64,000 bases of DNA from contig JAEUUF010000026.1 in assembly GCA_016787645.1 (NCBI GenBank), positions 310,001 through 374,000 on the forward strand, in the 5' to 3' direction. Origin of the DNA: Cyclobacteriaceae bacterium. Its GTDB lineage: Bacteria > Bacteroidota > Bacteroidia > Cytophagales > Cyclobacteriaceae. Below the pieces are notes generated by a model. That model was not told the origin of the DNA and made no database searches. It saw only the letters and a program-made list of their open reading frames with translations. The position numbers and the translations under genes are program-made. Below, in pieces: positions 36,922 through 58,609 of the stretch; positions within the stretch are counted from its first letter, which is position 1; the number at the start of each line of letters is the position of its first letter.

Positions 36922-36923
36922 AG

Positions 36924-36942
36924 TTGATTGAAAGACAATCAA
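36924..36942. promoter_or_regulatory. Inverted repeat TTGATTG-N5-CAATCAA at an adhesin start
   Basis: A perfect 7-bp inverted repeat with a 5-base loop, ending two bases before the minus-strand ATG at 36921. As RNA it would put a hairpin directly against the start codon; as DNA it could be an operator. No promoter box was found in the remaining 130 bp of this gap. Confidence 0.4.
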
Positions 36943-37076: not shown

Positions 37077-38111
37077 CTACTTGCCCCAGAAACCCGGGTT
37101 GCGACCGCCGGTTGGGCAAGGAATGAGGCGGTTGCGTTTCTTGACACCGCGGCTGATAGGCTTGGAGCTGAATTCGTACATCAACGAAATCTCATGCGCG
37201 CCTCCTGAAGCGGTGGCCAGCGGTGAAATGTTAAAATCATAGCTGTAGCCAATCGTCAGTTTGTCCAGGTACATTCCCAGCTGAAGAATCATGGCGTCAT
37301 GATTGATTGAGCCAACTACACTTTCTTCCCACGGCTTGCCGCGATACCACAAACCCACAAAAACGGGGTCAATATGATAATTGAGTCCCACATTGAACTG
37401 GGTGATGGGACCCTGGGATTGATAGATAAAAGAGGGTGTGAGGTAGGAAACACGCGAGGAAGTACGAAGGCCTCCCATCAGCGGAATACGGGCACCTGCG
37501 TGGATGGTAATCTTCATGGGTAGCCGGGTTACATCGTTGAGGATCGACATATTTGGTTGGTTCAAGTGATTGAACGATGCCCCAAACCAATAGATGGAAG
37601 AATATACAATAAATCCCGCGCTAAAGTCGAAGTACTGCTGATTGCCAAGGCGGTTAAGGTCAGGGTCCAGCGACTGGTTGTTGTACTCAAGTCCATCCCC
37701 CATGGTGAGTTTGCTTCGGTCAAGCCCGTTGATGCCATAGCCAAAGGCAAGACCGGGTGAGAACAGCCACTTGTCGCTTAACCGGATCTTGTAACTGTAC
37801 AACATGCTGATATTCGTTGTCCTCCACCCTGCCGAACCCATTTTGTCGGTTGTGGCGAGGATACCAAAACCGCTGTTGAGTTCATTCACCCAAATGTCAT
37901 AAGATGCCGCAAAGGTTGAGAATGCCTGGGGCAGGTTGGGCCACTGGAGGCGGTGGTTAAAAGTAAGGCGCTGCTGCGGTGTTACACCTGTAAATCCCGG
38001 GTTCAGGTACAACGGCGACTGGTAGTATTGGGAGAATTGAGGATCCTGTGCGAAGGCCAGGCTGGCCATCAGCATTATCCACCCCGTTACTATTTTCCCC
38101 TTTAGCGTCAT
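37077..38111 (-). CDS. PorP/SprF-family outer-membrane protein, partner of the giant adhesin
   Basis: 344 residues. The signal peptide (MTLKGKIVTGWIMLMASLAFAQ) is followed by DPQFSQYYQSPLYLNPGFTG, the family signature, a beta-barrel body, and a basic tail NRLIPCPTGGRNP like that of the second copy at 32180. The start is 10 bases after the stop of the giant adhesin gene, so they are co-transcribed. By analogy with the sprB-sprF pair, this protein is probably required to export or hold the adhesin on the cell surface. No terminator with a T-run was found in the 155-bp gap that follows. Confidence 0.92.
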   Translation of the reverse strand: MTLKGKIVTGWIMLMASLAFAQDPQFSQYYQSPLYLNPGFTGVTPQQRLTFNHRLQWPNLPQAFSTFAASYDIWVNELNSGFGILATTDKMGSAGWRTTNISMLYSYKIRLSDKWLFSPGLAFGYGINGLDRSKLTMGDGLEYNNQSLDPDLNRLGNQQYFDFSAGFIVYSSIYWFGASFNHLNQPNMSILNDVTRLPMKITIHAGARIPLMGGLRTSSRVSYLTPSFIYQSQGPITQFNVGLNYHIDPVFVGLWYRGKPWEESVVGSINHDAMILQLGMYLDKLTIGYSYDFNISPLATASGGAHEISLMYEFSSKPISRGVKKRNRLIPCPTGGRNPGFWGK

Positions 38112-38121: not shown

Positions 38122-41100
38122 TTATCGGATCATCGTGACATCACCAATTTGTGTGGACCGTTGACCGTCGGACAATCGAACCGTCAATTTATAGACGTAA
38201 ACTCCGGCCGGCATCAGTTTTCCATCAACGCTATATCCGTCCCAACCAATCTGGTTGCTATTGCTTTCAAAGATCAGGTTACCCCACCGGTCGTAGATCT
38301 GGAGGTTGAATTCATCTGCACCCTTCACGATTGGGAGGAAAACGTCATTGAACGAACCGTTACCCGACTGTCCTCCCGTCGGACCACTGGTTCCCGGGGT
38401 AAAGGCGTTGGGGACCTTGGTGATTCCACCCTGCCTGGCCTGAACCGTGTGTTTAAGCGTATCCGTGCATACTACACCGTCGCCATGGTCAAAGTTTGCA
38501 TAGAGCGTCAGCTCATAGATTCCTTCAACCTTATAGAAGTGTGAAGGCTCTTCGTAGGTGCCCTTTGTCCTACCATTATGTGTGCCGCTAGGAACCGCGA
38601 TTGTGTTGCTAGGTGCCGGGGGAGCCGTGAGCACATCACCATCACCAAAGTCCCAGGTGAATTGGAGATCCTGAGGGCTGGTGCTGAAATTGAAGATATC
38701 CAATTGGGTATCCGGAACAAAAATCACATCTGGCCTTGCGTCGAAGGAGGCAAATGGCTTTCCAAAAACGTGGAAGATATCAGGATGGGTAAAGGTTGCC
38801 TGCTGACCTGTCATGGAACTCTTGGTCAACACGCTGATCCGGTACTCGCCTGCCACAGGGATTTCAAATACCGGGAATACTCCGCTCGAAGTTGCGACCA
38901 CCCGGTTATTCTCATCGACCACGGTCCACTCTATGATATCCCCGGTAATTTCGGTCTTCAACGGATCCGTGCTTACGCTGATCTTGGCCGGGAAGCAGTC
39001 CTTCTTCGGGTCGGCATCAAACTTCGCGATCAGCGGCGGCAATACAATACTGATCGACTTGGTAAAGGTCGTCTTACATTCGGCCCGCTGTTTATTCGTT
39101 ACCGTAAGGGTAATGTCCTTAGGTCCCGGGCTCACGTAACGAATCGGAGCTGGCGTAGTTCCAGAGAAATTCGGCGGGTCAGAATCAGGTCCAAATACCC
39201 AGTCGTAGTCGAAAGCTGTAGCATCGATAACACTCGAGGTATTGGTGAATGGCACAATAGACTCGCCGTTAATGAAGGGTGGTACTGTGCCTTCCGAGAA
39301 CGAGGCCACCGAGTAGCGATACACATTAATCGGCATAATCACGGCCGGCACCACACATCCACTGGCATTGCTCGCCCGGAAAATAACCTCATAAACGATA
39401 GGGTTCGCCGTAGTGGTATTTGTGAACGTGTAGGTCATGTTGAAGGTAGTGCCCATCACTGTCTCCGGCACTTGTCCCTGCACCCGGTAGGACCACTGAA
39501 TGGTGGATGCCTGCGTTCCTACACTCGAATTCGTAAACGTAATTGACTCACCACTACAAATGTCAGTCCGGTTAGGCAACACGTTCAGGATCGGATTCGG
39601 GAATATCGTCACCTGCTTCGTCGTCGACTTGAAGCAGCCGGGATAAGGTGCCGGCAATTCGGTCTGCAGCGTCACCGGGTAGTTCAGCGTGGTGGAAGGA
39701 CTCAGGTTGGTGTAGGTATGCTTGATGACCATGTTGGGCACCGTAGTAGTCGCCGTGTAAACAGAGTCAGGTGAGTCACCAAAACGCCAGGTGTAAATCG
39801 TGCCTGCCACCTGGTTGTATTGGAACGTAGCCCGGTTAGGACTGCATGAAGACACAGGGCTGGTGATTGTGAAATTCGGATCGGTATCACCCACGTTGAC
39901 CACGAAGGGAACGTTAAATGGCGTTGTACAACCGAGGCCATCAGTAACCGAAGTTAGCGTGTAAGTCGTTGTCACCGTGGGCGCGTGCTGGAGGACAGCC
40001 ACTGGAGGCTGGTTGGTTTTGTTGATTGGAGCACCTCCATCGTTATAGGTGAAGTTGAAGGGCGCACGTCCTCCAATATTCAGCACAAGGAATTCCAGGC
40101 TTCCCTTGCATATAAAGTCAGGTGAAGGTGTATTCAACCATGAAGCCGAAATCTGAGGCGAAACAGTCACAATAATGATCTTGCTTTCTCCAACGCAACC
40201 GGTGCCGGGGCCAGGGCCTGTCGGTGTAATCGTATAGGTCAGTGTAGCCTGGAATCCAAGGGTGTTGGTCATCGGCTGGTTGATCACGTTTCCGCTGCCC
40301 GTGGCCGGCACGCCGAGCCCGCTGGGATCATCCACTGTCCAGGCGAATGTTGCAGCCGCCACGTTGCTGGTAAGCGGAACATTCAAGGTGGCTCCATGGC
40401 AAACGGTGACTGTTGTCGGCACGCCAAGTACCTTCGCTTTCGGGTTGACTTGCACAGCAACCGGAACGGTGGTTCCAGCGCATCCCGCGGCCTGAGGTGT
40501 AACATTGTAGGTTACGGTCTCAACAATGTTACCCGAATTGAACAGGATCTGGAAGATGCGATCGCCAGCCCCGGCGCTTGCGCCAGTAATCGTCGGATTC
40601 GCGGTTACTGTCCAGGTAGAAACCGTCGCTGCCACATCGGTAGTAAGCGTAATGTCGATCACGTCACCACTGCATATCTGGGGCTGAGGTGATGGCGTGA
40701 CAGTAGGTCTTGGATTGACTGTCACGGTAATGAATACATCATCACCAATACAGCCCGCGCCACCGTTGATGCGAGGACGCATGGTATAAGTTACCGTTTG
40801 CGCTGTGGTCAGCGGGTTGCTAAGCACATCATTCAGCGTACTTCCGTTTGCGAAGACGGTTCCGTTGGCAGACATACCGGTTACTCCGCCTGTCGGAACA
40901 GCGGTAACGAGCAAGAATTCAATGGTACCCGCCGACGGCGTAGTGGGTGATGTCAGCGAAATGTTGGTAGCCACCCCTTCGCAGAGTGTCTTGACTGTCG
41001 CTGCCACCAACTTGGGCTTCGGTTCAACCGTTACTACAACAACTGCCGGTGTACCCGAGCATCCCGCTCCCGATGAAGCGCCTGCCGCCACTGGCGTGAT

Positions 41101-44100
41101 GGTATAGGTTACTGTTGCAGGTGCATTCGACGAATTAACCAGGTTATCAGTGATCTTGTAGTTTTCGGCCAGTCCGCTGAGGGCAGGGACAAATCCTGTG
41201 ATCTGCGTACCCACTGAGGATACCGCAGTGTAGTTAAATGTGATCACTCCGGCAGTCGGGTTGGTCGGAGAAATCAACTCGATATCGGTAAGATCGGTAC
41301 CGTTGCCACTTCCACTGCACACCGTCGCTTTAAGGCTGATAGGTGCTGCCGTGATGGTAGGTTCCACGGTCAACGTGATATCCTCCTGCGGGCCTTTGCA
41401 AGCCGCAGCGGAAACTGGCTCCACGCGATAGATTACGGTCAGCGGGTTATTGGTAGGATTACTAAAGCGATCGTTGCTGACATAGTTGGCGGCTACACCG
41501 TTGGCAGGAACTACATTGGCACCGTTGGGAACCAATCCAGGGGCCGGAGTCACGCTGATGAGATTATAGGCCGTTGCCGGAGTGCTTGCGGCCGTAGTTG
41601 TGAACAGTACACCCGAAACCGCGTTTGTACATGCGATCTTGTTCAGGTTGTTGGCCAGGTCGGGTGAAGGATTGATCGTAAGTGTCACGGTTCCTTCAGG
41701 GCCCATGCAGCCCGCAGCAGTTACTGGAGATATCTTGTAAATGGCGGTCAATACTCCGTTGGTGGTGTTGATGTACACATCATTGAAGATTGCATTGGCT
41801 GCCTTGCCATTTCCTATTCCGGTATTCGCTCCCCCTGCGGTCAGCCCGGGGAACAAGATGGAGTTGATGTTGTAGGTAGTTGCGGCTACCGAACCGGCAG
41901 CTACACCCAGCGTCACACTTGAAATGACGCCACTGCAGACCGGGGTAGGGTTAAGCAACGGATCCAGGGTCGGTTCTGGGTTAATCACTACATCGTAGTC
42001 CAGGTTGGCACTCTTACATCCAGAGGAACTCGTCCCCTGGATGGTGTAACGGACGGTAACCGGCACCGTGGAAGTGTTGGTATAACGATCATTCTTGACC
42101 AGGTCAATGCTGCCAGTCGCACCTACCAGTGCATTACCTCCAGCCGCGGTGAATCCTGCCGGCAAGGCGACGCCAAAGGGTCCGCCATTGCTGTATTGAA
42201 TCAGCATCAACTGATAAGATGAAGCTGAGGCCGAAGTACCGTTTGTACCCAGTACAACGTTGACAATATTGCTGACAGCGGTATTGCTACTGCAGACGGC
42301 CGGGAATCCAGGGTTAAGCAGGACGGGCTCAGGATTGATGGTGAACTCCACCAACTTCGCGTCGCCGAGGCAACCATTGGTTCCCACAGGTACAACACTA
42401 TAAACAACCTTCTGCGGTGTAGCAGTGGTATTCACATAGCTGTCTCCCTGAATGACGTTATCAGCCGATCCACCACCTCCGATAAGTCCGAGCGGGCGAC
42501 CGCCAGTGATACCCGCATCCTTGCTGACCACCGTTACATTATAACTGGCTGCAGCAATCGAAATACCGTTCGTAGCCAGCAGTTTACCGTAGACTTCTCC
42601 GCTACACTTGGTTTCGTTAAGCGTATTGGCTACCACCGGTTCAGGACGAACCGTAATGGCAATCTGGAACGGGTCGCCCACAGCACCATTTGTGCCTGTG
42701 GGAGTCACTGTATAAGTGATGACCTCATCTGCATTGGTCACGTTGTTGAGCAGGTCGATGATGAATGCCCCGGATTGAAGCGTCGTGCTCTCGCCGGTAA
42801 CGTTAGGGTTAGCTGTTGCAAACCAGCCAAACGTGGCAGTCTGACCATTACCCAGTGTGTTCAAATTGTTCTGTAAGTCATAATTCGCAGCAATATCGCT
42901 GCACACCGTGACCGCGTCGTTAGCGCCCACTGGTTCAGAGCGAACCGTTACTGTAATAGTGAAAGGATCGCCAAGGACTCCGTTTGTCCCGGTAGGAATA
43001 ACAGTATACACCACTACCTGGTCGACACCCGTCACGTTGTGAAGGACATCGGTAATTGTGCCTGTAGGTGTACCAGCCAGGCTCTCTCCGGTGACTGACG
43101 GATTATCAGCTGCCTGCCATACGAAAGTAGCTGGCACGGCATTTCCACCGCTGTTCACATTATTCTGCAGACTGTAGCTGAGGGCCACATCACTGTTGAC
43201 CGTGACGATATCATTAAAACCAACAGGCTCAGGCAGCACGGTAACCGTGATGATAAACGGATTCCCTACACATCCATTGGTGCCTGTAGGAATCACTGTA
43301 TAGGTGACTGTCTGATTGGCATTAGTGACGTTATTGAGAACATCCGTGATCACTGCACCAGCCTGTGGAGTAGTGCTCTCACCTCCTACGTTGCTATTGA
43401 TGGAGGCTACCCAACTGAAGTTGGCCGGGAGATTATTGCCAATGGTATTGACATTATTCTGCAGATTGTAATTGAGAATAATATCGCTGTTGATGGAAAC
43501 CGCTTCGTTGGCCCCAACTGGTTCCGGTTGCACCGTCACACTCACTGTGAACGGATTGCCTGCGCAACCATTCGTACCGGTAGGAGTTACCGTGTAGACG
43601 ACCACCTGGTTCGCGTTCGTTACATTGTTGAGGACATCCGTGATGATCGGTCCAGCCTGTGCAACAGTGCTTTCACCCGTGATATTGGCATTCGGAGCCG
43701 CCACCCAGGTAAAGTTGGAAGAGAAGCCGTTACCCAACGTATTGACGTTGTTCTGCAAATTATAGGTTACGGCCGCATCGCTGCAGATGGTTTTCACATC
43801 ATTTGCGCCAACAGGTTCTGCGCCGATGGTGATAGTAATAATCTTGGAATCGCCCAAACAGCCGGTTGCCGAAACAGGAACTACGGTATATTGAACCGTC
43901 AGGGGAACCAGCGTCGGGTTGGTAAAGACATCAGCCGCCAGATAGATAGGCGCAACGCCAACAGCAGGTACCGCTGCGTTGCTTCCAGCTGCAATCAAGC
44001 CAGGAGCAATTGTAATAGATGTAATGTTGTAATTGGCAGCCGCGGCCGATGTGCCGGTAGTCGCCAATGTAAGCCCAGTAGCCACATCGCTGCAACGCGC

Positions 44101-47100
44101 AGCATCCAGGCCGCTCGCTACAACAGGCTCAGGCTGAATGGTCATGGTAATGACCTTTGAATCTCCCAAACATCCAGCGCCACTGACCGGGACCACCGTG
44201 TAGGTTACCGTCAACGAGGCTGCGGTGACGTTAGTAAAGAAATCAGCAGACAAATAGTTATTGGCTACACCGGCCGCGGGAACTATTGCATTAGTCCCTC
44301 CTGCCAGCAAGCCGGCGGCAATCGTACGACTGGTAATGTTGTAGGTTCCAGCGGCAACGGAAGTGCCGTTGGTATTCAGGGTAAGTCCGATAGCAAGATC
44401 ACTGCAGACTGTGGCATCCAGTCCATTGGCGACCACAGGCTCTGGGTCAATAGTCATTGTCACCACGACGGCATCGCCCACACAACCCGCTGCACTCACT
44501 GGCACGACAGTATAAGTAACTGTCAACGGCAGCGGACCACTGTTGGTATACTTATCATTTAACAAATAGTTGGAGGTCACTCCTATCGCCGGCACTACGG
44601 CATTTGTTCCGGCAGGAACCAGTCCAGCACTAATCGTCCTGGCCGTGATATTGTAGTTTGCAGCGGCCACAGAGGTTCCATTCGTAGCCAGTGTCAGACT
44701 GATCGAAGCATCGCTGCACTTGGTTGCACTCAATCCGGGAGAAACAACCGGCTCTGGATTGATGGTCATGGTGACCACTTTCGGATCACCCAAACATCCT
44801 GCTGCAGTTACCGGGACAACGGTATACGTCACCGTCAGTGACGTATTGGTGGGGTTAGTGAACGCATCAGCTGCCAGGTAGTTATTGGCCACCGCAACAG
44901 CTGGAACTGCCACATTCGTTCCTGCAGGAACCAATCCGGCCGCAATAGAGCGTGCGGTAATGTTGTAATTGGCCGCTGCTGCAGAGGTGCCTGTGGTATT
45001 GAGTGTCAGGCCGACCACCGCATCGCTGCACACCGTAGCATCCAGGGTTGAAAGGACAACCGGCTCGGGATTGATGGTTACGGTAATAACCTTGGGGTCA
45101 CCCGGACAGCCAGCTGCACTGACAGGAACCACGGTGTAGGTCACATTGAGTGGTGTTGTACCATTATTGGTATACACGTCAGCCGCCAGGTAATTAGCCG
45201 CTACACCATTAGCGGTAATAGGGGCATTTGAAGCACCTACAGTAAGCCCAGCCGCCACCGTACGAGCTGTAATATTATAGTTGGCTGCCGCCACTGATGT
45301 CCCTTCGGTGGCCAGCATCAATCCAATCGCCACATCGCTGCACTGTGTGAGATTCAGCGTACTCGATACTACAGGTTCGGGATTAATGGTGATAGTAATC
45401 ACCTGAGGATTCCCAACGCAACCCGCCGCGCTTACTCCCACTACCGTGTAGGTCACGCCCAGCGGTACTGCTCCGTTATTGACGAACTTGTCACTAGCCA
45501 GGAAGTTGGCAGCCACATTGTTCGAAGGCACTGCGGCATTTGTACCCGCTGCAGTGAGTCCTGCGTCGATCGTACGGGCCGTCACATTGTAGCTGGCGGC
45601 AATGACCGATGTACCGTTGGTATTGAGGGTCAATCCGGTAGCAATGTCGCTGCATACGGTGGTATTCAGCAACGGAGAAATAACCGGTTCAGGATTGATG
45701 GTCAGTGTGATAACCCGCGCATTCCCCACGCAACCGGCCGCACTAACCGGCACAACCGTATAGGTCACTTGTAACGATCCATTGGTCGTATTCGTGAAGA
45801 CATCAGCGCCAAGATAATTAGCCGCTACACCAAAGGCCGGAACTACCGCATTACCTGCACCCGCCACCAGGGCACCTGCCACTGTTGAAGCCGTGATATT
45901 GTATGATGCAGCCGCAACCGAAGAACCATTGGTATTAAGGGCAAGGCCAGTAACAACATCACTACAAAGGGTCGCATCGAGGCTTCCGGAAACAACAGGT
46001 TCGGGATTGATCGTGATCGTAACCGTTGCAGGATCACCAAGACAGCCTGCTGCGCTTACGGGGACGATGGTATAAACAACCGTGAGCGGTAAAGCTCCTG
46101 TATTGGTGAAAATGTCGCCGGAAAGGTAGTTCACCCCAACACCGGTTGCGGGGATCACCGCATTGCCACCCGCCGCTGAAAGCCCGGCAGCGATGGTTAC
46201 ACCCGTAATGTTGTAATTGGCGGCAGCCACTGAAGTTCCGTTGGTGTTCAGAACCAATCCAGTAGGTATGTCACTGCATACCGTACCATTTAGTGTAGCG
46301 GAAAGAACAGGCTCCGGGTTGATGGTGATCGTGATCACCTGGATGTCTCCTTTGCAACCTGCAGCGCTCCGGGCTCTGACGGAATAAGTAACGGTCAAGG
46401 GATTCGCTCCTTTGTTGGTGAACTTGTCCGACGCGAGGTAGTTACTTCCTACACCATTTGCCGGAACAGCAACGTTACCGCCTGCCGCCACAAGCCCTGC
46501 ATCAATGGTCCTTGAAACAATCTCATAATCGAGGGCGGCTACGGAGGTACCATTAGTAGCCAGGTTCAGCCCGATAACTGCATCACTGCATACCGTGGTG
46601 TTCAAAGTTGCTGCAACTACTGGCTCGGGATTGATCGTCATTGTAATCACGCGGGGATTGCCCACGCAACCCGAAACGCCTACGCCAACTACCGTATAAG
46701 TCACTGTCAATGGCAACGCACCTGTATTGGTGTAAGTATCATTGGCCAGGTAGGCTGCTGGTGCACCATTGAAAGGAACCACTGCATTCGCGCCTCCAGC
46801 TACCAAGCCAGCGGCAATCGTGCGAGCCGTAATATTGTAGTTAGCCGCAGGGGCTGACGCTGCATCAGTGGCGAGGGTAAGCCCAATGACATCATCGCTG
46901 CATACCGTCGCATTGAGGTTATTGGCAACGATCGGGCCAGCATCAATAGTCACCGTAATGGTTTTGGCATCTCCAAGACATCCTGCAGCACTAACCGGGA
47001 CAACTACATACTGAACAGTCAGCGAGAGGCTTGTACTATTGGCAAAGGTGTGGTTGGCCAGGTAGTTGGCAGCAACTCCGGCTGCAGGCACCACGACGTT

Positions 47101-50100
47101 ACCACCTGCAGCCACCAGTCCTGCTGCTATCGTTTGGGACAGGATATTGTAATTGATGGCTGGCTCAGAAGTTCCATTTGTGCCGAGTACCAGTCCGATG
47201 GCTACGTTACTACACTGGGTGAGATCCAGTGTATTGGATACCACCGGCTCAGGATTAATCGTCACGGTAATGGCTTGCTGGTTACCCAGGCATCCAGCAG
47301 CGCTGAGAGCCTCCACAGTGTAGATTACCGTAAGTGGCGATGCCGTGGTGTTGGTGAATTTGTCAGACGCCAGGTAATTGGCTGCTACTCCCGAAGCCGG
47401 TACTACAGCGTTGGCGCCGTTGGCCACAAGACCTGCGGCAATGTTGCGGCTGACGATATTATAATTGAAGGCGGCAACGGAGGTTCCATTGGTATTCAGT
47501 ACCAAGCCCGTCGCCAGGTCGCTGCAGACGGTTGTATTGAGTGTGGCAGAAACGACCGGTTCAGGATTAATGATAATGGTGATGACACGCGAGTCTCCGA
47601 CACAAGCTCCCGCGCTCACCCCAGCAACTGTATACGTTACGGTCAGTGGCGCTGCGCCGGTATTGGTGTAGACATCATTGGCCAAATAACCTGGCACCAC
47701 GCCCAGTGCAGGAACCGGAACATTGGCTCCTCCTGCCACAAGGCCGGCGGAAATCGACCGGGCAGTGACATTGTAATTGGCTGCCGCTACGGATGAGCCA
47801 TTGGTGTTCAAGGTAAGTCCGATTACTGCATCGCTGCAGACGGTTGCGTCAAGCGTGGCGGCAACAACAGGCTCAGGGTTAATCGTAATAGTAATGACCT
47901 GAGGGTCTCCCTGGCAGCCCGCCGCACTAACGGGCACAACGGTGTAGGTTACCGTCAACGGGGCAGCCCCAGTGTTCGTGAACTGGTCATTAGCAAGGTA
48001 ATTGGCAGCTACACCAGTGGCGGTCACCAAGGCGTTACTGCCTCCTGGGGTCAGGCCTGCCTGGATAGAGCGCGCGGTAATATTATAGGTGGCTGCTGCA
48101 ACGGATGTACCATTCGTATTTAGAATAAGCCCGGTAGCTACATCACTGCACACCGTGGCGTTAAGGAGCGTGGATACCACCGGCTCTGGATTAATCGTCA
48201 TGGTGATCACTTGCGGATCACTCACGCATCCTGAAATGCTCACACCCTCAACCGTATACGTGACGGTCAGCGGAAGAGCGCCTGTGTTTGTGAATTTGTC
48301 ACCAGCGAGGTATCCAGCCGCCACACCATTGGCTGGAACTGCAACGTTGGTAACTGCCGCAGTAAGCCCGGCACTAATTGAGCGGGCCGTGACATTGTAG
48401 ACTGCTGCCGCCACGGAGGCGCCATTCGTCGCCAAGGTCAGACCAGTTGCTGCATCGCTGCATACTGCTGCATTCAAGGTTGTTGAAACAACCGGTTCCG
48501 GATTGATGGTGATCGTAATCGACTTCGCATCACCCACGCAACCAATGGCGCTGACAGGAACGACAGTGTAGACCACGGTCAAGGGTGCTGCGCCGGAATT
48601 CACAAAAATGTCGTTAGCGAGGTAATTCGCTGCAACACCATTTGCGGGTACTACAGCATTGCCTGCATTGGCCGTAAGCCCGGGAGCAATTGTCCTTGTG
48701 GTGATATTATAATTGGCTGCTCCGACAGAGGTACCGTTAGTAGCCAAGGTCAGTGCAATTGCTGCATCGCTGCATTTCGTTGCGTCCAGTGTGTTGGATA
48801 CTACTGGTTCAGGGTTAATCGTCTGCGTGATCACCTGGGGCGCTCCAACGCAACCACTTGCGCTGATACCCACCACGGTGTATGTCACGGTTAATGCGCC
48901 GTTGGTCGCATTAATAAACTCGTCGTTGGCCAGGTAGTTGGCTGCAACACCATTGGCAGGAACAAACGCGTTGGAACCCGCTGCGGTCAATCCGACGGCG
49001 ATGGTACGCGCTGTAACATTGTAAGTTGCAGCGGCCACAGATGTTCCTGACACCGCAAGGGTAAGCCCGGTTGCATCGTCACTACAATGTGTAGCGTCCA
49101 GTGCATTGGAAATGACCGGTTGCGGGTTCACTGTTATCACCACGGTTCGTGGCGTTCCCAAACATCCCGAACCACTGGTCGGTGTAATCGTGTACGTGGC
49201 TGTGATTGGGGCGTTAGTGGTATTGGTCAGGACATCATTAATGTGAATGGTTCCCGCAGGTCCGCCGGCAACGCTACCCGGAGAGGCTGTTCCCTGCGCT
49301 GGTCCGGCAGACATCACCGGTGCAGGCCAGGTAAATGATGTGCCGGCAGGAAATGTCAGCGGGCTTAAAAGAATTTCGTAGCTGGTCGATGCGCCACTGC
49401 ATATGGTCTTCTGCTGTGGCGTAACCAGTACCGGCTCAGGATTAACCGTAACCACAACATCCTGCGAATTACCCGTACAGTTGGGTGCGGCAATGGCCAC
49501 CGGTGTAACGCGGTAGGTGACAGAACCGGAGAACCCAGAAGTATTGGTAAGTACCTGATTGATATTTCCCGAGCCAGTATTACCAACAGTCGCACCGGTG
49601 ACACCACCCGTTACGGTGATCACCTGCCAGTTGAATGTACTTGGAACCAGCGGGTTCGTTGTGAATACAATCGAAGGGACGTTGCCACTGCAGATGGTGT
49701 TCGTATTGCCTGATGTCATCACCGGGCGGTCGGCGGCTGCGACGTTGAGGGTAACAGGTGTTCCTGAACATCCCGATGCACTTACTTCATTCAGAGTAAT
49801 ATCCGCACTGGCTAAAAGACCAAAATCAACCGTAATCGTCTGTAGCCCTACCCCACTTGAAGCACTGACTATCGTCGCACCAGAGGCAGACCAGTTATAA
49901 GTTGATGTTGGGTTGAAAATACCAGCCGGAACACTAAAGTTGACCCCTGTCTGGTTCTTACAAACTACCGTTGGACCATTGATCGACAACGCTCCAGGAG
50001 CCGGAGCTACCGTAATAGGAAGGCTGTTCGATGAACCCACGCAACCAAAGGCATTGGTTTCAACAACCGAGATAGGAAATGGGCCGCCAACCGTTGGGAA

Positions 50101-53100
50101 GCTCAGCAGCACAAAGAAGTTCGGGGAGTTGGTACCGCCACCGCCAAAGACGGTGAACTGAGGAGGAATCGTCCATGTAAAGGTTGACCCCGCATTCGGT
50201 GTCACCTGGTAGAGAATAATATTGGTAGGATCAACGCAGACGGTTCCTGGCCCACCAATCGGGTTGGCCACCGGCAAAGGGTTGATGGTTACTACAACTG
50301 TGCGTGCAGTGCCTACGCATCCCGCACCGCTGGTTGGTGTAATGGTATAGGTGGCTGTAATCGGTGCGCCGGTACCATTGACCAGCACGTCGTTAATATG
50401 TTTAGTTCCTGCCACACCCATCGGAACGTTGACACCGGGTGAACCCTGGGGTGCCCCAGCCGACATAGTAGGCATGCCCCAGTTAAAGACAGTGCCTGCA
50501 GGAGCATTCGCAGGGCTAAGCAGGATTTCAAGACTGGTATTCTGACCGCTACAAATGGCTTTGGTTTGACCTGCAGGAATCACCGGTTCGGGGTTGACCG
50601 TGATCACAACCGGTCGCATGGTGCCCGAGCACACACCAACCGGTGCTGTCGGCGTTACATTATAGGTAACTGTTATTGGGGCGCCTGTTGTATTGGTAAG
50701 GACTTCCGTGATATGATTTGTGCCTGCAACCCCCATCGGGACGTTTACACCGGCAGTACCTTGAGCAGGCCCACCTGAAACTGTGGGGATAGGCCAGTTG
50801 AAAACAGTACCTGCTGGCAGGTTAAGCGGCGTCAACAGGATCTCTTTGTTCACTGCCTGGCCACTGCAGATTGTCTTGGTTTGGCCCGCGACAATTACTG
50901 GTGCAGGACGCACGGTGATCACTACATTCTCCACTGCGCCAGTGCAAGTACCCAAAGCGCCGCCAGGTCCTCTCGGAGTTACCGCATAGGTTACCGTAAT
51001 ATCCGCGCCTGTAGTATTGGTAAGCACATCCCCGATTTGTGCTGTTGTACCCGGGAAGGCCCTCGCGGTGGCTGGTCCGGCACCATCCGGATCAGGCCAG
51101 CTGAAAAGTGTTCCTGCTGGCAGTCCGGCCGGTGTTAATGTTATGGTGTGGTTGACAGCGGCGCCACTGCATATTGTTTTTGTTTGCCCTGGTGTAATGA
51201 CTGGTGCTGGGTTTACCGTGATGACAACGTTTCGCGGAGTTCCTGCACAGCCAGCTGCGCTTGTGGGTGTGACTACGTAGGTAACTGTAGTGTTGGCACC
51301 GGTAAAGTTAGTCAGCACGTCGGTGATATGCAGAGTTCCCGCAGGGTCGGCTGCTATACTCTTGGCCGTCGCGGGCCCGGCGCCATCGGGGTCAGGCCAA
51401 CTCAGGGTGGTTCCGGCAGGTGAATTTACCGGCGTCATGAGAACCTCAAGATTAACTGGTGAGCCGCTGCAAATAGTCTTTACCTGGCCTGCGTTAACGA
51501 CTGGAGTGGCATTGACAATGAGTGGAGTGCTGTTGAAGGGTACAACACCGGCGCAAAGGGTAACTGTATTGATCAGGGATGTGACCGTAATGACATAAGA
51601 GCCAGGAGCGCTGCCCCATGCTGTATAAGGAGGTGCGATTGTGAGTTGTCCCGATGCATTTGTTGCAACGCCAGTGAGTGTGAAAGGCGTACCATTCAGT
51701 GTATAATTGACATCATAGGTTTGAACTGAATTGGGAAGCAGGTCAAGAACTGCATCAGGCGGATTGGTTCCTGCGCCTACGTCACACACTGCAGCGGTTG
51801 CTGTAAAACTTTGTACGGAAGGGGGCGGTACCGCCGTCACATTGACGTTAGCCACGCCTCCCATCGAAGTTGCCACACAACCATTCGCGTCGGTCAGTGA
51901 AGTAATCTGGTAAGTCTGGCTCGCTGGAGGATTAGGTCCAACAATGGTATAGGTCAGGCTCATGTGACCCGCAACAACCAATGGTCCTTCAACCGATCGG
52001 GTGATGGTGAAGTTGAATGGCGCAGTTCCAGTCAGCGTCCAGGTGATGTCAGGTGCCGGAGTTCCCGAACAGACCGAACCACCGCCTGTGGGATTGGAAG
52101 CGGTGGGCAGTGGATTGATGGTAACGGGCGTGGGGTCGGAAAGTACACTTGTACAGTTGGAAGGTGCGATGCCTCGAACTTCGACTGTATAATTTCCACT
52201 TTGAGCAACCGTGGTAAGGACAATATTTTGTGTTGTCGTTCCGGTGAATACGCCATCCTTATACCAACGATATGAAGCAGCCAATGCACCAACATCACTC
52301 GAGGTTAGTGTAACGCTGCCACCAAAGCAGAATGTAGTCGCACCTGATGGTGTGATAGTGGGTTTTGGTGGAACAGGATTAACCGTGACCGTATTCTGAT
52401 TAGCAACAATCGTGGTAGTGCTTGCGCATGGACCGCCGGCATTCTGGTTTTGGACTAAGACTCTGTATTTGTAAGTGCCCGGACCATTGGGTGGTATTTC
52501 ACTGAAAGTAGCGAGGCCTGCAGTACCTGCAATGGCGACAAAGGGCCCTCCTCCGAAACTCCTCTCCCATTGCAAGATGGCGCCCCGCGTGCCAGTGGCA
52601 TTCATATTGCCTGTGGTTACGCCATCGCATATTGTTGGACTTGGGGAAATTGTACCACCATCACTTTGCCCAAATACCGTCACTCCAAGGATTACGTTGG
52701 CATTCTGGCAGGCCAAGGGATTTATATTGTAGGTTGGCGGAGTCAGAGGTGCTGGCACGGGGCTTACCACTGGAATATTCGTAGTTGTAACAAACTGCCT
52801 TCTTACCCGCACATCGCCAGGATCAGAAACTGGAATTGGGGCAATATTGAAATCTACGGTTACTGAGTTGGCATTCGCCGGTGGAGTTACGGATACTGTG
52901 GCTGCGTAGTTAGCCACACTCCATAAGTTCTCAGTGGGAAGATTTATTGCTGCTCCATTTGTAGAGAAAGCGGCAGGAATCGTCTTGGTATTTGGCGCCG
53001 AAGTCGTATAGATAGATGTGCTTCCATTACAAACAGAGGTTGCACCAACAGGAACAGAGGGGATATCAGGTGCAACATCAATTCTTGGTTGTTGAACAAT

Positions 53101-54897
53101 CACGATTTCAATCGGGTCACTTTCGCAACCGTTGGTTCCGCCAGCCACCTGCGTTGCCCACACCGAATGATAACGACCATTGGTGTTATTGCTGGTAAAG
53201 GCACCGCCTATGCCACCTTGGGCACCATACGAACCTGCGGGGAAAGTCAAGGCATTGGCGCCACCCGGGTTGGTCATCTTGGTTGCTGTGCCTACACTGG
53301 CGAAGTCCTTGTACCAATTCACGCCCGTGCGAGCAGCACCAATGGAACTTGCCGATGTAAAATTGAATGCTGTGCTATTTGGGTTGGTATAACAGATGGC
53401 CTGGCCAGCTGTCGTCAGCGGCACAGGTTTTGTAACTATTTCAACATAGTTCTCAATAGTAACTGGAGCAGTAAAAGGGGATGGCAGGATACCATTGGGA
53501 TCCTTATAAGGGTTACACACATCCCAATACTCAAGGCGTACATAAAAACGGTCTCCAACAGCCTGATTAGCTGCTGATACCGTGGTTATGTATCGCATAT
53601 ACGTTACGAGAGTTGATGTAAGCACCGGCGTAGGTAACTCGATAACTCCTTGCGCGTCGGGAATTCCAACCCCACCAATACCTGTTGGAAAGTAACCTGT
53701 TGGGAACAGTAGTGTACCTGCTGCATTGTTGGAAGTCACTTGAACGCCACCGACACGGATATCGGGAATATTAGTAGCAAGGTTTTGGCTTCCATAGACA
53801 ATTCTAATATGACGTGCAAGGTCATTGGGCACACCTGTTTCTGGGGCTGCTAACCGGCAGTTAAGCAGGGTCATGTCGGTGAACCGCATATTCACATTTG
53901 TACCTAAGCAAACCCTGTCAGTCGTTTCACCAACGGCTGGGGGATTAAATGGCATATTTAGTGTGCCAGTGTTTGCATTGTCTGTGTCATAAGATGCAAA
54001 TGTGGTGTTCTGGGCAATTGAATTGCAGAAGGCATTACCATTGAACACTGGCGTTATTCGAGCATCCCAACTACAAATATCCGGCGCTGGGGTAGTTGTT
54101 GCTGGGTAGTTGTGAGTTGGCCTTGACGTAAGTATCACTGCAGGATTGCCCCCAAATGCCGGATCGGAATTACTAATGAATGTGGCATTTGGTACACCAG
54201 CAAGATCAGAACGAACAGGTACAACACTTGAATTTGTTGCATCTCCCCACACAATGGAGTAAGTAAGTGGATAGGCGGCTCGAGATGTGCTATTTTGAAG
54301 TCTCAAACTTAACTTATAGGCGATCTGCCGAAAGTCCATAACAACTGGAGCACATTTGTCAACTGTTCCATAGTCTGTCAAATTAAAAAACACCAATTCA
54401 GAACAGATTGGAGATGCCGGGGGAAACCCGAGGTTTGCGAAATTGTTCTTAGAATTAATGAAAGCGGAACTATTGGCAGGATTCCCACTGCCTGATGTTG
54501 TTAAGGTATTTCCAGTATTAGTGAAACTAATACTTAGCGTTTCACCAGGCTTTACGAATGACTCCCCAGCCAAGTGCCCGGCGGCTCCCGTTGCATCAAA
54601 CTGAACATTGACCCGATTGCCTGCAATGGTAGCAGAGTTCACAACAATACCTACAGCACTACCGTTGATCCGTACAATCCATTGTGCGGGCACTGTGGAC
54701 CCGGTCAGTGTAATTGCTCCACCAGCACCATCATCGAAAAGCACAGAAATAACCCGCTGACTGAGTGTCTCATGCCTAGGCTCAGCAGCACTGTTCACCA
54801 CCGTCGCCGTCTGTGCAAGCGCCGTGGTGGTCGCCAAGAATGAAGTGAAAACCAGAAGGACTAAAGCCAGACCCCTGTACCTTCCAAAATGCTTCAT
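38122..54897 (-). CDS. Giant T9SS adhesin with 17 isometric tandem domains
   Basis: 5591 residues from ATG 54897 (signal peptide MKHFGRYRGLALVLLVFTSF...ALAQ); an upstream ATG at 54960 adds 21 residues before a second, ordinary signal sequence and is rejected. Layout: N-terminal region with DVCNPYKDP (to about 800), Ig-like domains (about 800-1130), six or so domains opening GQTKTICSG (about 1130-1930), 17 tandem 104-residue domains opening LxATxCSD (1931-3698), four 98-residue domains (EPVGAN..., 3699 to about 4090), irregular relatives to about 5050, PKD domains, and a type B sorting domain (VPNAFTPG, DVFLPI, IYDRWGNLIF, GWDGYSVDGK, GVYVYK, ending VTMIR). Likely a long surface adhesin or gliding protein in the SprB manner. 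Its partner SprF-like gene follows by 10 bp. Confidence 0.92.
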   Translation of the reverse strand: MKHFGRYRGLALVLLVFTSFLATTTALAQTATVVNSAAEPRHETLSQRVISVLFDDGAGGAITLTGSTVPAQWIVRINGSAVGIVVNSATIAGNRVNVQFDATGAAGHLAGESFVKPGETLSISFTNTGNTLTTSGSGNPANSSAFINSKNNFANLGFPPASPICSELVFFNLTDYGTVDKCAPVVMDFRQIAYKLSLRLQNSTSRAAYPLTYSIVWGDATNSSVVPVRSDLAGVPNATFISNSDPAFGGNPAVILTSRPTHNYPATTTPAPDICSWDARITPVFNGNAFCNSIAQNTTFASYDTDNANTGTLNMPFNPPAVGETTDRVCLGTNVNMRFTDMTLLNCRLAAPETGVPNDLARHIRIVYGSQNLATNIPDIRVGGVQVTSNNAAGTLLFPTGYFPTGIGGVGIPDAQGVIELPTPVLTSTLVTYMRYITTVSAANQAVGDRFYVRLEYWDVCNPYKDPNGILPSPFTAPVTIENYVEIVTKPVPLTTAGQAICYTNPNSTAFNFTSASSIGAARTGVNWYKDFASVGTATKMTNPGGANALTFPAGSYGAQGGIGGAFTSNNTNGRYHSVWATQVAGGTNGCESDPIEIVIVQQPRIDVAPDIPSVPVGATSVCNGSTSIYTTSAPNTKTIPAAFSTNGAAINLPTENLWSVANYAATVSVTPPANANSVTVDFNIAPIPVSDPGDVRVRRQFVTTTNIPVVSPVPAPLTPPTYNINPLACQNANVILGVTVFGQSDGGTISPSPTICDGVTTGNMNATGTRGAILQWERSFGGGPFVAIAGTAGLATFSEIPPNGPGTYKYRVLVQNQNAGGPCASTTTIVANQNTVTVNPVPPKPTITPSGATTFCFGGSVTLTSSDVGALAASYRWYKDGVFTGTTTQNIVLTTVAQSGNYTVEVRGIAPSNCTSVLSDPTPVTINPLPTASNPTGGGSVCSGTPAPDITWTLTGTAPFNFTITRSVEGPLVVAGHMSLTYTIVGPNPPASQTYQITSLTDANGCVATSMGGVANVNVTAVPPPSVQSFTATAAVCDVGAGTNPPDAVLDLLPNSVQTYDVNYTLNGTPFTLTGVATNASGQLTIAPPYTAWGSAPGSYVITVTSLINTVTLCAGVVPFNSTPLIVNATPVVNAGQVKTICSGSPVNLEVLMTPVNSPAGTTLSWPDPDGAGPATAKSIAADPAGTLHITDVLTNFTGANTTVTYVVTPTSAAGCAGTPRNVVITVNPAPVITPGQTKTICSGAAVNHTITLTPAGLPAGTLFSWPDPDGAGPATARAFPGTTAQIGDVLTNTTGADITVTYAVTPRGPGGALGTCTGAVENVVITVRPAPVIVAGQTKTICSGQAVNKEILLTPLNLPAGTVFNWPIPTVSGGPAQGTAGVNVPMGVAGTNHITEVLTNTTGAPITVTYNVTPTAPVGVCSGTMRPVVITVNPEPVIPAGQTKAICSGQNTSLEILLSPANAPAGTVFNWGMPTMSAGAPQGSPGVNVPMGVAGTKHINDVLVNGTGAPITATYTITPTSGAGCVGTARTVVVTINPLPVANPIGGPGTVCVDPTNIILYQVTPNAGSTFTWTIPPQFTVFGGGGTNSPNFFVLLSFPTVGGPFPISVVETNAFGCVGSSNSLPITVAPAPGALSINGPTVVCKNQTGVNFSVPAGIFNPTSTYNWSASGATIVSASSGVGLQTITVDFGLLASADITLNEVSASGCSGTPVTLNVAAADRPVMTSGNTNTICSGNVPSIVFTTNPLVPSTFNWQVITVTGGVTGATVGNTGSGNINQVLTNTSGFSGSVTYRVTPVAIAAPNCTGNSQDVVVTVNPEPVLVTPQQKTICSGASTSYEILLSPLTFPAGTSFTWPAPVMSAGPAQGTASPGSVAGGPAGTIHINDVLTNTTNAPITATYTITPTSGSGCLGTPRTVVITVNPQPVISNALDATHCSDDATGLTLAVSGTSVAAATYNVTARTIAVGLTAAGSNAFVPANGVAANYLANDEFINATNGALTVTYTVVGISASGCVGAPQVITQTINPEPVVSNTLDATKCSDAAIALTLATNGTSVGAANYNITTRTIAPGLTANAGNAVVPANGVAANYLANDIFVNSGAAPLTVVYTVVPVSAIGCVGDAKSITITINPEPVVSTTLNAAVCSDAATGLTLATNGASVAAAVYNVTARSISAGLTAAVTNVAVPANGVAAGYLAGDKFTNTGALPLTVTYTVEGVSISGCVSDPQVITMTINPEPVVSTLLNATVCSDVATGLILNTNGTSVAAATYNITARSIQAGLTPGGSNALVTATGVAANYLANDQFTNTGAAPLTVTYTVVPVSAAGCQGDPQVITITINPEPVVAATLDATVCSDAVIGLTLNTNGSSVAAANYNVTARSISAGLVAGGANVPVPALGVVPGYLANDVYTNTGAAPLTVTYTVAGVSAGACVGDSRVITIIINPEPVVSATLNTTVCSDLATGLVLNTNGTSVAAFNYNIVSRNIAAGLVANGANAVVPASGVAANYLASDKFTNTTASPLTVIYTVEALSAAGCLGNQQAITVTINPEPVVSNTLDLTQCSNVAIGLVLGTNGTSEPAINYNILSQTIAAGLVAAGGNVVVPAAGVAANYLANHTFANSTSLSLTVQYVVVPVSAAGCLGDAKTITVTIDAGPIVANNLNATVCSDDVIGLTLATDAASAPAANYNITARTIAAGLVAGGANAVVPFNGAPAAYLANDTYTNTGALPLTVTYTVVGVGVSGCVGNPRVITMTINPEPVVAATLNTTVCSDAVIGLNLATNGTSVAALDYEIVSRTIDAGLVAAGGNVAVPANGVGSNYLASDKFTNKGANPLTVTYSVRARSAAGCKGDIQVITITINPEPVLSATLNGTVCSDIPTGLVLNTNGTSVAAANYNITGVTIAAGLSAAGGNAVIPATGVGVNYLSGDIFTNTGALPLTVVYTIVPVSAAGCLGDPATVTITINPEPVVSGSLDATLCSDVVTGLALNTNGSSVAAASYNITASTVAGALVAGAGNAVVPAFGVAANYLGADVFTNTTNGSLQVTYTVVPVSAAGCVGNARVITLTINPEPVISPLLNTTVCSDIATGLTLNTNGTSVIAASYNVTARTIDAGLTAAGTNAAVPSNNVAANFLASDKFVNNGAVPLGVTYTVVGVSAAGCVGNPQVITITINPEPVVSSTLNLTQCSDVAIGLMLATEGTSVAAANYNITARTVAAGLTVGASNAPITANGVAANYLAADVYTNNGTTPLNVTYTVVPVSAAGCPGDPKVITVTINPEPVVLSTLDATVCSDAVVGLTLNTTGTSAAAANYNITARSIAAGLVPAGTNVAVPAVAVANNYLAADAFTNPTNTSLTVTYTVVPVTAAGCLGDPKVVTMTINPEPVVSPGLSATKCSDASISLTLATNGTSVAAANYNITARTISAGLVPAGTNAVVPAIGVTSNYLLNDKYTNSGPLPLTVTYTVVPVSAAGCVGDAVVVTMTIDPEPVVANGLDATVCSDLAIGLTLNTNGTSVAAGTYNITSRTIAAGLLAGGTNAIVPAAGVANNYLSADFFTNVTAASLTVTYTVVPVSGAGCLGDSKVITMTIQPEPVVASGLDAARCSDVATGLTLATTGTSAAAANYNITSITIAPGLIAAGSNAAVPAVGVAPIYLAADVFTNPTLVPLTVQYTVVPVSATGCLGDSKIITITIGAEPVGANDVKTICSDAAVTYNLQNNVNTLGNGFSSNFTWVAAPNANITGESTVAQAGPIITDVLNNVTNANQVVVYTVTPTGTNGCAGNPFTVSVTVQPEPVGANEAVSINSDIILNYNLQNNVNTIGNNLPANFSWVASINSNVGGESTTPQAGAVITDVLNNVTNANQTVTYTVIPTGTNGCVGNPFIITVTVLPEPVGFNDIVTVNSDVALSYSLQNNVNSGGNAVPATFVWQAADNPSVTGESLAGTPTGTITDVLHNVTGVDQVVVYTVIPTGTNGVLGDPFTITVTVRSEPVGANDAVTVCSDIAANYDLQNNLNTLGNGQTATFGWFATANPNVTGESTTLQSGAFIIDLLNNVTNADEVITYTVTPTGTNGAVGDPFQIAITVRPEPVVANTLNETKCSGEVYGKLLATNGISIAAASYNVTVVSKDAGITGGRPLGLIGGGGSADNVIQGDSYVNTTATPQKVVYSVVPVGTNGCLGDAKLVEFTINPEPVLLNPGFPAVCSSNTAVSNIVNVVLGTNGTSASASSYQLMLIQYSNGGPFGVALPAGFTAAGGNALVGATGSIDLVKNDRYTNTSTVPVTVRYTIQGTSSSGCKSANLDYDVVINPEPTLDPLLNPTPVCSGVISSVTLGVAAGSVAATTYNINSILFPGLTAGGANTGIGNGKAANAIFNDVYINTTNGVLTAIYKISPVTAAGCMGPEGTVTLTINPSPDLANNLNKIACTNAVSGVLFTTTAASTPATAYNLISVTPAPGLVPNGANVVPANGVAANYVSNDRFSNPTNNPLTVIYRVEPVSAAACKGPQEDITLTVEPTITAAPISLKATVCSGSGNGTDLTDIELISPTNPTAGVITFNYTAVSSVGTQITGFVPALSGLAENYKITDNLVNSSNAPATVTYTITPVAAGASSGAGCSGTPAVVVVTVEPKPKLVAATVKTLCEGVATNISLTSPTTPSAGTIEFLLVTAVPTGGVTGMSANGTVFANGSTLNDVLSNPLTTAQTVTYTMRPRINGGAGCIGDDVFITVTVNPRPTVTPSPQPQICSGDVIDITLTTDVAATVSTWTVTANPTITGASAGAGDRIFQILFNSGNIVETVTYNVTPQAAGCAGTTVPVAVQVNPKAKVLGVPTTVTVCHGATLNVPLTSNVAAATFAWTVDDPSGLGVPATGSGNVINQPMTNTLGFQATLTYTITPTGPGPGTGCVGESKIIIVTVSPQISASWLNTPSPDFICKGSLEFLVLNIGGRAPFNFTYNDGGAPINKTNQPPVAVLQHAPTVTTTYTLTSVTDGLGCTTPFNVPFVVNVGDTDPNFTITSPVSSCSPNRATFQYNQVAGTIYTWRFGDSPDSVYTATTTVPNMVIKHTYTNLSPSTTLNYPVTLQTELPAPYPGCFKSTTKQVTIFPNPILNVLPNRTDICSGESITFTNSSVGTQASTIQWSYRVQGQVPETVMGTTFNMTYTFTNTTTANPIVYEVIFRASNASGCVVPAVIMPINVYRYSVASFSEGTVPPFINGESIVPFTNTSSVIDATAFDYDWVFGPDSDPPNFSGTTPAPIRYVSPGPKDITLTVTNKQRAECKTTFTKSISIVLPPLIAKFDADPKKDCFPAKISVSTDPLKTEITGDIIEWTVVDENNRVVATSSGVFPVFEIPVAGEYRISVLTKSSMTGQQATFTHPDIFHVFGKPFASFDARPDVIFVPDTQLDIFNFSTSPQDLQFTWDFGDGDVLTAPPAPSNTIAVPSGTHNGRTKGTYEEPSHFYKVEGIYELTLYANFDHGDGVVCTDTLKHTVQARQGGITKVPNAFTPGTSGPTGGQSGNGSFNDVFLPIVKGADEFNLQIYDRWGNLIFESNSNQIGWDGYSVDGKLMPAGVYVYKLTVRLSDGQRSTQIGDVTMIR
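43804..49107 (-). repeat. 17 tandem 312-bp coding repeats in the giant adhesin
   Basis: The Cys codon of the CSD motif recurs at 49084, 46900, 45652, 45028 and 44092. All of these are separated by exact multiples of 312 bp, and 16 intervals give 4992 bp. Each unit encodes 104 residues with a conserved Cys near the start (CSD) and a second near the end (GCxG), a likely disulfide pair. Neighbouring units clearly differ at the nucleotide level, including many synonymous positions, while length is constant. Confidence 0.9.
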
Positions 54898-54939
54898 GAA
54901 AGCGGTAAAAACATTCGTGCGTAAATACACGAAACAGCG

Positions 54940-54948
54940 CAAATAGTA
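54940..54948 (-). promoter_or_regulatory. Variant -7 box TACTATTTG for the giant adhesin
   Basis: Minus-strand TA-N3-TTTG, one base longer than the consensus spacing, 42 bases upstream of the ATG. It is the only TTTG-type box in the divergent gap on this strand. Confidence 0.3.
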
Positions 54949-54967
54949 ACCTTCGGGCATCTAGGGT

Positions 54968-58553: not shown

Positions 58554-58609
58554 AACCGAATCATCGAATTAACGAATCAACGAATCAACGAATCATCGAA
58601 TCAACAAAT
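58554..58609. repeat. Octanucleotide array, right arm, 7 units, consensus CAACGAAT
   Basis: AACCGAAT, CATCGAAT, TAACGAAT, CAACGAAT, CAACGAAT, CATCGAAT, CAACAAAT, in phase, ending four bases before the TTG start of parA. Reverse complement of the family at 58495 and 14425. Confidence 0.85.

Follow-up and report, generated by a model that had tools for sequence, protein, structure and literature searches.

Locus and Domain Architecture

The DNA analyzed here, referred to as the window, is a stretch of 64,000 nucleotides from a Cyclobacteriaceae bacterium (GenBank assembly GCA_016787645.1, contig JAEUUF010000026.1, positions 310,001 to 374,000). Its minus strand carries the gene of a giant cargo protein of the type IX secretion system (T9SS), whose middle is formed by an array of 17 immunoglobulin (Ig)/PKD-like domains, and these domains follow a hidden super-repeat of three units. 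The window's own genome is labeled G000; all other G and L labels denote the genomes and loci compared with it. A single open frame runs through all 5612 codons of the gene, which is composed as follows:

38122..54960, minus strand: open reading frame (ORF) of 5612 residues, giant T9SS type-B cargo protein (ORF and matches to the C-terminal sorting domain, CTD)
49129..54960, minus strand: N-terminal part, 1944 residues; a region of ~500 residues with unassigned fold, followed by PKD/Ig-like domains that are diverse and vary in length
43825..49128, minus strand: array of 17 Ig/PKD-like domains, each of exactly 104 residues
48817-49128, minus strand: unit 1 of the array
43825-44136, minus strand: unit 17 of the array
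38353..43824, minus strand: post-array region; more PKD_5 domains, then PKD domains
38146..38352, minus strand: type-B T9SS CTD (CHU_C, PF13585; profile match)

The Array Is Repetitive in Protein Only

The 17 Cys codons of the array lie on the minus strand at 49086, 48774 ... 44094, and each of the 16 intervals between them measures 104 codons. The flanking Cys intervals measure 105 codons before and 103 codons after the array and lead into other domain types. All 17 units match the unit profile at full or near-full length (one match over 103 residues, the rest over 104), and their protein and DNA alignments contain zero gaps, even with the gap penalty lowered. The original prediction of 17 units of exactly 104 residues is thereby borne out, as is its statement that no unit has gained or lost a codon. 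The motif CSD is present in 16 units and reads CSN in unit 7, and pairwise amino acid identity averages 0.639 (0.529–0.740). By their profile scores, the units are PKD_5 domains (Pfam PF19406): the array halves score 215 and 150 bits (cut-off 25), whereas for a single unit the match is in most cases restricted to the C-terminal half of the profile, and two units stay below 25 bits alone. An AlphaFold2 model of two domains reached a predicted local distance difference test score (pLDDT) of 97.6 and a predicted template modeling (TM) score of 0.88. No solved relatives of the unit profile were found by sequence; two weak sequence matches of the array to solved structures (E 0.038 and 0.15) were taken as chance.

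At the DNA level, the units share a mean pairwise identity of 0.607 (0.538–0.676). They had been predicted to differ at many positions, including synonymous ones, and this holds: the proportion of synonymous differences (pS) is 0.77, and the synonymous substitution rate (dS) is undefined due to saturation in 91 of 136 pairs. For the 45 pairs with defined dS, the median ratio of nonsynonymous to synonymous rates (dN/dS) is 0.13, which is only an upper bound because silent sites are saturated. Where two units share a residue, the codon is identical at a frequency of 0.348, compared to 0.334 for random codon choice. The longest exact repeat within the 5.3-kb array measures 19 bp (200 synonymous shuffles: mean 19.9, range 16–27), and Tandem Repeats Finder reported nothing within the array. 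The repeat is present at the protein level only and has been lost from the DNA. Given the saturation of silent sites and a longest exact repeat no different from that of the shuffles, the array is old and inherited and not recently exchanging.

Unit Order and Unit Number in Related Arrays

A search with the unit profile covered 58 genomes and found matches in 25, i.e., the window's own genome, 23 of the 35 other genomes of the genus, and 1 of the 22 from elsewhere in the order. Stretches from 13 other genomes were then compared together with three named loci, which belong to metagenome-assembled genomes (MAGs) labeled Cyclobacteriaceae, Bacteroidetes, and Flammeovirgaceae. The resulting comparison of ten arrays includes only units of ≥ 100 bits, which favors units similar to the window's own. 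In six sister genomes (G008, G009, G018, G024, G013, and G027; loci L047–L052), the corresponding array is of a second type, composed of another PKD-like subtype. These six are related to each other and count as one or two cases. By eye, the second array type resembles the domains just after the window's array.

The array of L054, the Cyclobacteriaceae MAG, comprises 23 units, and all 22 intervals measure 104 residues. Window units 1–13 pair with L054 units 1–13 and window units 14–17 with L054 units 20–23; all 17 pairs are reciprocal best hits with an amino acid identity of 0.74–0.91, and in a tree of 159 units 16 of them are sisters, the exception being unit 3. Silent sites between both loci are near saturation in the array orthologues and nearly so elsewhere in the gene. 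The two nearest arrays share their unit order across a deep split and differ by six units only. Units pair by position across speciation with L054 and not with G020 or G007, and positional pairing is lost between the window and the distant lineages as a whole (G020, G007, L056, G033, and kin), so that unit order must have turned over slowly over deeper time. Unit number varies across the genus and is not conserved even in the nearest pair (17 versus 23). A comparison of unit numbers among relatives had been suggested in the original prediction; it reveals a difference of whole units with the order kept.

The six extra units of L054 are 0.31–0.50 distant from their nearest other unit, while orthologues average 0.22 (0.09–0.75). 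They hence appear older than the split and were, judging from these distances, probably lost in the window's lineage, with import from elsewhere as a further possibility. The orthologous pair of unit 3, at 0.746, lies beyond all six extra units and weighs against this order of events, which is a reading of averages. The breakpoint of the six-unit difference was placed best in unit 14, residues 20–28 (1479 of 1768 matches), compared to ~1473 for unit 13 and for the boundary of unit 12; the placement thus narrows to between units 12 and 14 and no further.

A difference of six units would fit ongoing unequal exchange of whole units with subsequent divergence, a mode known from Periscope-type proteins, which would hold unit length at 104. 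The differing unit numbers within the genus fit as well, and another giant ORF of the genus, in G031, contains fresh blocks that are 99.9–100% identical. However, no unit pair exceeds a DNA identity of 0.71 within any of the ten arrays, the longest exact repeat spans 18–31 bp in the nine arrays measured, and the window and L054 retain the same unit order. Unequal exchange is largely refuted for recent time, and as the cause of the constant length we consider it improbable. The exchange invoked in the original prediction thus fails for recent history, given 17 of 17 positional pairs and no pair above 0.71; a whole-unit change of six and a slow turnover over deeper time did occur.

An assembly artefact or chimera was considered, as the gene is repetitive, the genomes are drafts, and L054 stems from a metagenome assembly with a contig that begins within the gene. 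The longest exact repeats of 19 bp (window array) and 31 bp (L054 array), the uninterrupted frame of 5612 codons, and the same architecture in independent genomes speak against it. Because the window sequence has no N and the array no exact repeat longer than 19 bp, it is very unlikely that units were collapsed or expanded during assembly, and we give an artefact or chimera practically no weight.

Another explanation for a protein repeat without a DNA repeat is selection on silent sites that keeps unit DNAs dissimilar and blocks recombination, i.e., natural codon scrambling. In agreement with this, the array is silently the most diverged part of the gene in all four pairs of this array type, with normalized codon identities for the array, the part before, and the part after of 0.40/0.47/0.60 (G033–G002), 0.11/0.13/0.17 (G001–L055), 0.07/0.15/0.11 (G033–L055), and 0.04/0.10/0.08 (G000–L054). 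Yet three of the four pairs have genomes in common, the differences in G001–L055 and G000–L054 amount to only ~1–2 standard errors, and G033–G002 is compatible with a recombined segment. Among the four pairs of the second array type, one has the array as its most diverged part and two as their least diverged. Furthermore, the mean DNA identity between units of 0.607 is slightly above, not below, that of 200 synonymous shuffles (0.589, standard deviation 0.0017), and there is therefore no sign of DNAs driven apart past saturation. As unit DNAs are no less alike than the shuffles, codon scrambling is disfavored and in our view quite improbable; a weak effect may nevertheless exist.

The G033–G002 pair (loci L041 and L043) deserves attention of its own. 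Codon identity is 0.41–0.52 in units 1–5 and 0.59–0.79 in units 6–11, and unit 1 of G033 is closest to L055 (0.91). Judged by these identities, the pattern looks like inter-lineage recombination whose breakpoint would lie between units 5 and 6. We further considered avoidance of similar neighbors, for which a misfolding argument is given in PMC4660218. This reading was rejected: none of the nine arrays examined had a lag-1 identity significantly below that of permuted unit orders.

Unit Length Is Constrained but Not Fixed

Relatives of the window's array contain units of 102–107 residues. Among units of ≥ 100 bits, those deviating from 104 number 0/17 in the window, 0/23 in L054, 2/21 in G020, 1/21 in G007, 6/21 in L056, 2/11 in G033, 5/12 in G001, 2/11 in G002, 5/12 in L055, and 1/10 in G017, with units at array ends or preceding a skipped weak unit defaulted to 104. 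In all five pairs compared for this array type, indels per amino acid substitution were less frequent within the array than elsewhere in the protein: G000–L054 (0/292 versus 6/425), G007–G020 (1/864 versus 65/1294; p-value 2.5e-13), G001–L055 (0/253 versus 5/680), G033–G002 (5/194 versus 25/464), and G033–L055 (3/390 versus 13/762). For G000–L054, the number of indels before the array is two in one count and one in another on a shorter stretch. Along a tree of the 40 units of the window and L054, 677–824 substitutions were accompanied by 0 indels, where the rate outside the array would predict 9.6–11.6. In the second array type, whose unit lengths of 100–105 follow a pattern largely inherited by position, indels were likewise rarer in the array for G009–G018 (2/287 versus 17/519, p-value 0.027) and G008–G009 (1/399 versus 14/567, p-value 0.006).

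Several results weigh against a strict length constraint. Apart from the tolerated 102–107 residues, four of the five pairs are non-significant singly (p-values 0.086, 0.33, 0.15, and 0.29), and three of these four share genomes. The only significant pair, G007–G020, compares units without a pairing by descent. The indel excess outside the array may result in part from harder alignment or, in G033–G002, from the recombined segment. In the second array type, the direction is reversed for G024–G013 (3/77 versus 1/56) and G009–G024 (8/313 versus 6/296). Length is constrained in the window-type array without being fixed, and less clearly constrained in the second array type. Of the strong structural selection on domain length that the original prediction had put forward, the direction holds (five of five pairs, one significant), and its absoluteness does not, given 102–107 residues and agreement of only two of four pairs in the second type.

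A Three-Unit Super-Repeat

Similarity between units at lags 1–3 was viewed first in nine arrays. Several of them revealed excess similarity at lag 3, and period 3 was tested afterwards. In L054, similarity was increased at lags 3, 6, 9, and 12 and decreased at all others, and the period-3 test was exceeded in 0/2000 permutations. This signal spans many columns and persists without columns 18, 44, 70, and 98 (p-value 0.0005). L056 followed with a p-value of 0.042.

The period is most apparent in single columns. Position 70 in the window is Lys in units 3, 6, 9, 12, and 15, i.e., in five of five multiples of three and in none of the 12 other units (0/200 permutations). The codons identified by the column analysis are:

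48295..48297, minus strand: Lys codon, position 70, unit 3
47359..47361, minus strand: Lys codon, position 70, unit 6
46423..46425, minus strand: Lys codon, position 70, unit 9
45487..45489, minus strand: Lys codon, position 70, unit 12
44551..44553, minus strand: Lys codon, position 70, unit 15

Position 98 complements this pattern, being basic in 6/6 units of the form 3n+2, 3/6 of the form 3n+1, and 0/5 multiples of three. In L054, position 70 is Arg in units 3, 6, 9, 12, 15, and 21, which makes up 6/7 of the phase and 0/16 others (0/200 permutations). In the remaining seven arrays, the best column failed the family-wise test (p-values 0.35–0.80). The five position-70 sites shared between the window and L054 are orthologous, with Lys in the window, Arg in L054, and the charge kept in 5/5; their codons are not the same and L054 has the higher G+C content, so that the charge stayed while the residue changed. 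A concerted Lys-to-Arg change in L054 was rejected in favor of the simpler explanation by higher G+C (G+C at third codon positions 0.689 versus 0.513), given the varied Arg codons (AGG, CGG, CGC, CGG, CGA, and CGC).

For the pooled tests of position 70 and of all columns, unit runs of ≥ 75 bits were used, and G017 was left out. In the pooled arrays of G020, G007, L056, and G033, which had not been used for discovery, position 70 is basic in 16/25 multiples of three (p-value 0.00017). Without G033, whose phase depends on counting its 83-bit first unit (as does that of its kin), the p-value is 0.0033; singly, only G033 is significant (p-value 0.014). Across 104 columns, 19 residue classes, and periods 2–7, period 3 alone was significant (0/400 permutations; others p-value ≥ 0.07), and it stays significant when the window and L054 are excluded. 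The pooled lineages carry further marks: the third unit has Ala at position 18 and an acidic residue at position 44, and the second has a basic residue at position 98. Period 3 also emerged in the second array type, with p-values of 0.015, 0.007, 0.006, 0.005, and 0.019 and 0/1000 permutations in the six genomes; among periods 2–6, only 3 and its multiple 6 reached p-values < 0.02.

Other results limit the finding. The period-3 identity test was non-significant in eight of ten arrays (window 0.09, G033 0.07, L055 0.15, G002 0.21, G007 0.21, G020 0.30, G001 0.79, and G017 0.93), so that only L054 and L056 pass singly. The window's own signal disappears without columns 18, 44, 70, and 98 (p-value 0.37), and position 70 is non-significant singly in G020, G007, and L056 (p-values 0.08, 0.11, and 0.13). 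Phase agreement between species was significant for L054–L056 (p-value 0.0015) and for L054–G000, the latter of which orthology alone would yield, and non-significant in the other eight pairs. The three-unit super-repeat exists: it consists of a basic position 70 in every third unit and additional marks, in the same phase in the pooled lineages. In silent codons, period 3 was non-significant in all nine arrays (p-values 0.07–0.90), and the super-repeat is therefore no recent duplication.

Recent three-domain amplification was observed elsewhere in the genus. At L045 (G031:C1:3207000-3226900), an ORF of 7797 residues (~3218701–3226932 in the contig) contains a 318-residue block of three domains in seven copies with 99.9–100% DNA identity. 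A 192-residue block is likewise present in seven copies (99.1–99.7%), which indicates fresh amplification within the genus.

The period may be a mere relic of growth by three-domain cassettes, without present function. The G031 block, with its seven near-identical copies, is in line with such growth. The distribution of period 3 over many columns of L054, including those other than 18, 44, 70, and 98, is also consistent with a relic. So is the spacing of 936 bp, three units, between the copies of the longest exact repeat, which was seen in L054 as well as in G020. On the other hand, the signal has outlived the saturation of silent sites, and one phase is read across the pooled lineages. The charge maintained through the Lys/Arg change at all five orthologous positions points in the same direction, albeit weakly, as 30/34 basic residues of the window array stay basic in L054 anyway. 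We regard a functionless relic as nearly as likely as not.

A more speculative interpretation is that the stalk is a ruler at the domain level, with three domains per structural turn. Position 70 would then form a basic stripe on one face, which would serve lateral packing or surface binding, and exact length and changes in multiples of three would be selected, since any other length or step would disrupt the phase. A turn of three domains would explain the phase agreement of the pooled lineages, the six-unit difference, and the constancy of length. If true, the same period would have been reached in two array types from different domain subtypes. We regard the ruler, its stripe included, as a tentative and rather unlikely proposal.

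T9SS Context and Neighboring Genes

The C-terminus of the 5612-residue protein matches CHU_C with 45.5 bits (cut-off 27) and TIGR04131 with 39.2 bits in one search and 33.6 in another (cut-off 35), which identifies the protein as a type-B CTD cargo. For residues 49–520 of the N-terminal part, structure prediction from three sequences yielded a poor model (pLDDT 31.7). CTP synthase and YidC genes lie upstream on the opposite strand, and the cargo gene is directly followed by a candidate partner gene:

37077..38111, minus strand: PorP/SprF-family outer-membrane partner gene, directly downstream of the cargo gene (TIGR03519, 248 bits, cut-off 90.55)

SprA, the T9SS translocon protein, is present in the window's genome (2411 bits). 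The GldJ model reached 70 bits at best in this genome (cut-off 458; weak match at G000:C6:9463-10389). Despite SprA, the weakness of the GldJ-like match suggests that gliding may be absent.

At 32180–36942 of the window, the minus strand carries another ORF (1249 aa) that encodes a type-B T9SS cargo protein with PKD domains; its TIGR04131 score was 33.2 bits in one search and 38.1 in another (cut-off 35), and a second PorP/SprF gene adjoins it. Another PKD_5-domain protein of the same genome was found at L053 (G000:C13:150000-156043) as an open frame of 1664 residues near a contig end. Regarding other features of the window, positions 5862–23199 on the minus strand harbor long ORFs of ~800–890 aa (889, 808, 828, 803, 802, and 820), with one of 386 among them, which may represent a paralogous family. 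Short tandem repeats of 7 and 8 bp are located at 8534–8571 and 58557–58613, just beyond long ORFs.

Discussion

Taken together, we consider it probable that the array belongs to a T9SS-exported stalk with length under purifying selection, a stable unit order, and a three-unit super-repeat. Within the giant protein, the array would be the central section of a stalk that is long and probably rigid, and the protein is probably held on the surface by the neighboring PorP/SprF-like protein. Each 104-residue unit is modeled as one beta-sandwich domain, with the next domain following without a predicted loose linker. Purifying selection would keep the fold and length of the units, while homologous exchange between units would be rare because their DNAs lack long identical stretches. 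With exchange this rare, unit order would be stable and unit number would change only in rare jumps of whole units. The array may have grown from a three-domain cassette, a growth unit supported by the seven-copy block of G031, and the phase may have been kept since three domains would equal one structural repeat of the stalk. The protein is a putative adhesin, the term that the original prediction had used.

Several components of this account have known counterparts. PMC9143113 reports that SprB was found bound to SprF and presents the proposal that type-B CTD proteins anchor via PorP-like partners. The protein described here resembles SprB/SprF-type proteins of Flavobacterium johnsoniae as a giant type-B CTD cargo with an adjoining PorP/SprF-like gene. 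The GldJ model stays below cut-off in this genome, where gliding would be hypothetical, and the likeness to SprB is drawn from the CTD and the neighboring gene. Periscope proteins, as far as presented in parts of PMC8201768 and PMC9704523, have repeats with high DNA identity and fast changes in number. Shared features are the folded domains in tandem, for which a rod shape is expected, and a unit number that varies between relatives; however, the DNA identity between our units is ≤ 0.68 (mean 0.607) and their order is stable relative to L054, which sets the array apart from that class.

Repeats that diverged from each other yet are conserved by position between species are described in a study of the human proteome (PMC3995336) and in a study including bacteria (PMC5120217). 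Our units likewise diverge mutually and are conserved position by position between species; unlike those repeats, they form a bacterial giant stalk with a non-conserved unit number and a three-unit phase. Super-repeats are known in titin and nebulin, according to parts of PMC3859903. The array shares with these proteins a higher-order period of domains, but they are muscle proteins with periods of 7 or 11 instead of 3, the array has no known partner filament, and the likeness is not drawn from a sequence comparison. Grappling hook protein A (GhpA) of Aureispira was matched in fold only (Foldseek, TM-scores 0.26–0.38), with a cadherin pair ranking first; no sequence match to GhpA was found with the array, the N-terminal third, the C-terminal third, or the C-terminal profile.

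Giant T9SS cargo with PorP-like partners, diverged but conserved repeats, and super-repeats in titin and nebulin are thus already known. A literature search, mainly of titles and abstracts and of some passages, found neither a three-domain super-repeat in a T9SS stalk nor the array itself. What is new here is the hidden three-domain super-repeat, which the original prediction had missed.

Giant surface stalks are easily mistaken for strings of interchangeable spacers. In the two lineages compared, individual domains kept their place and identity while repetition vanished from the DNA, and a three-domain super-repeat is readable across a genus. As a mere relic, the phase would be a fossil of the way such arrays are born, of which a sister genome offers a recent case. 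If the phase is functional, it would provide a testable rule, namely that length changes by whole super-repeats only, and would predict the geometry of the stalk.

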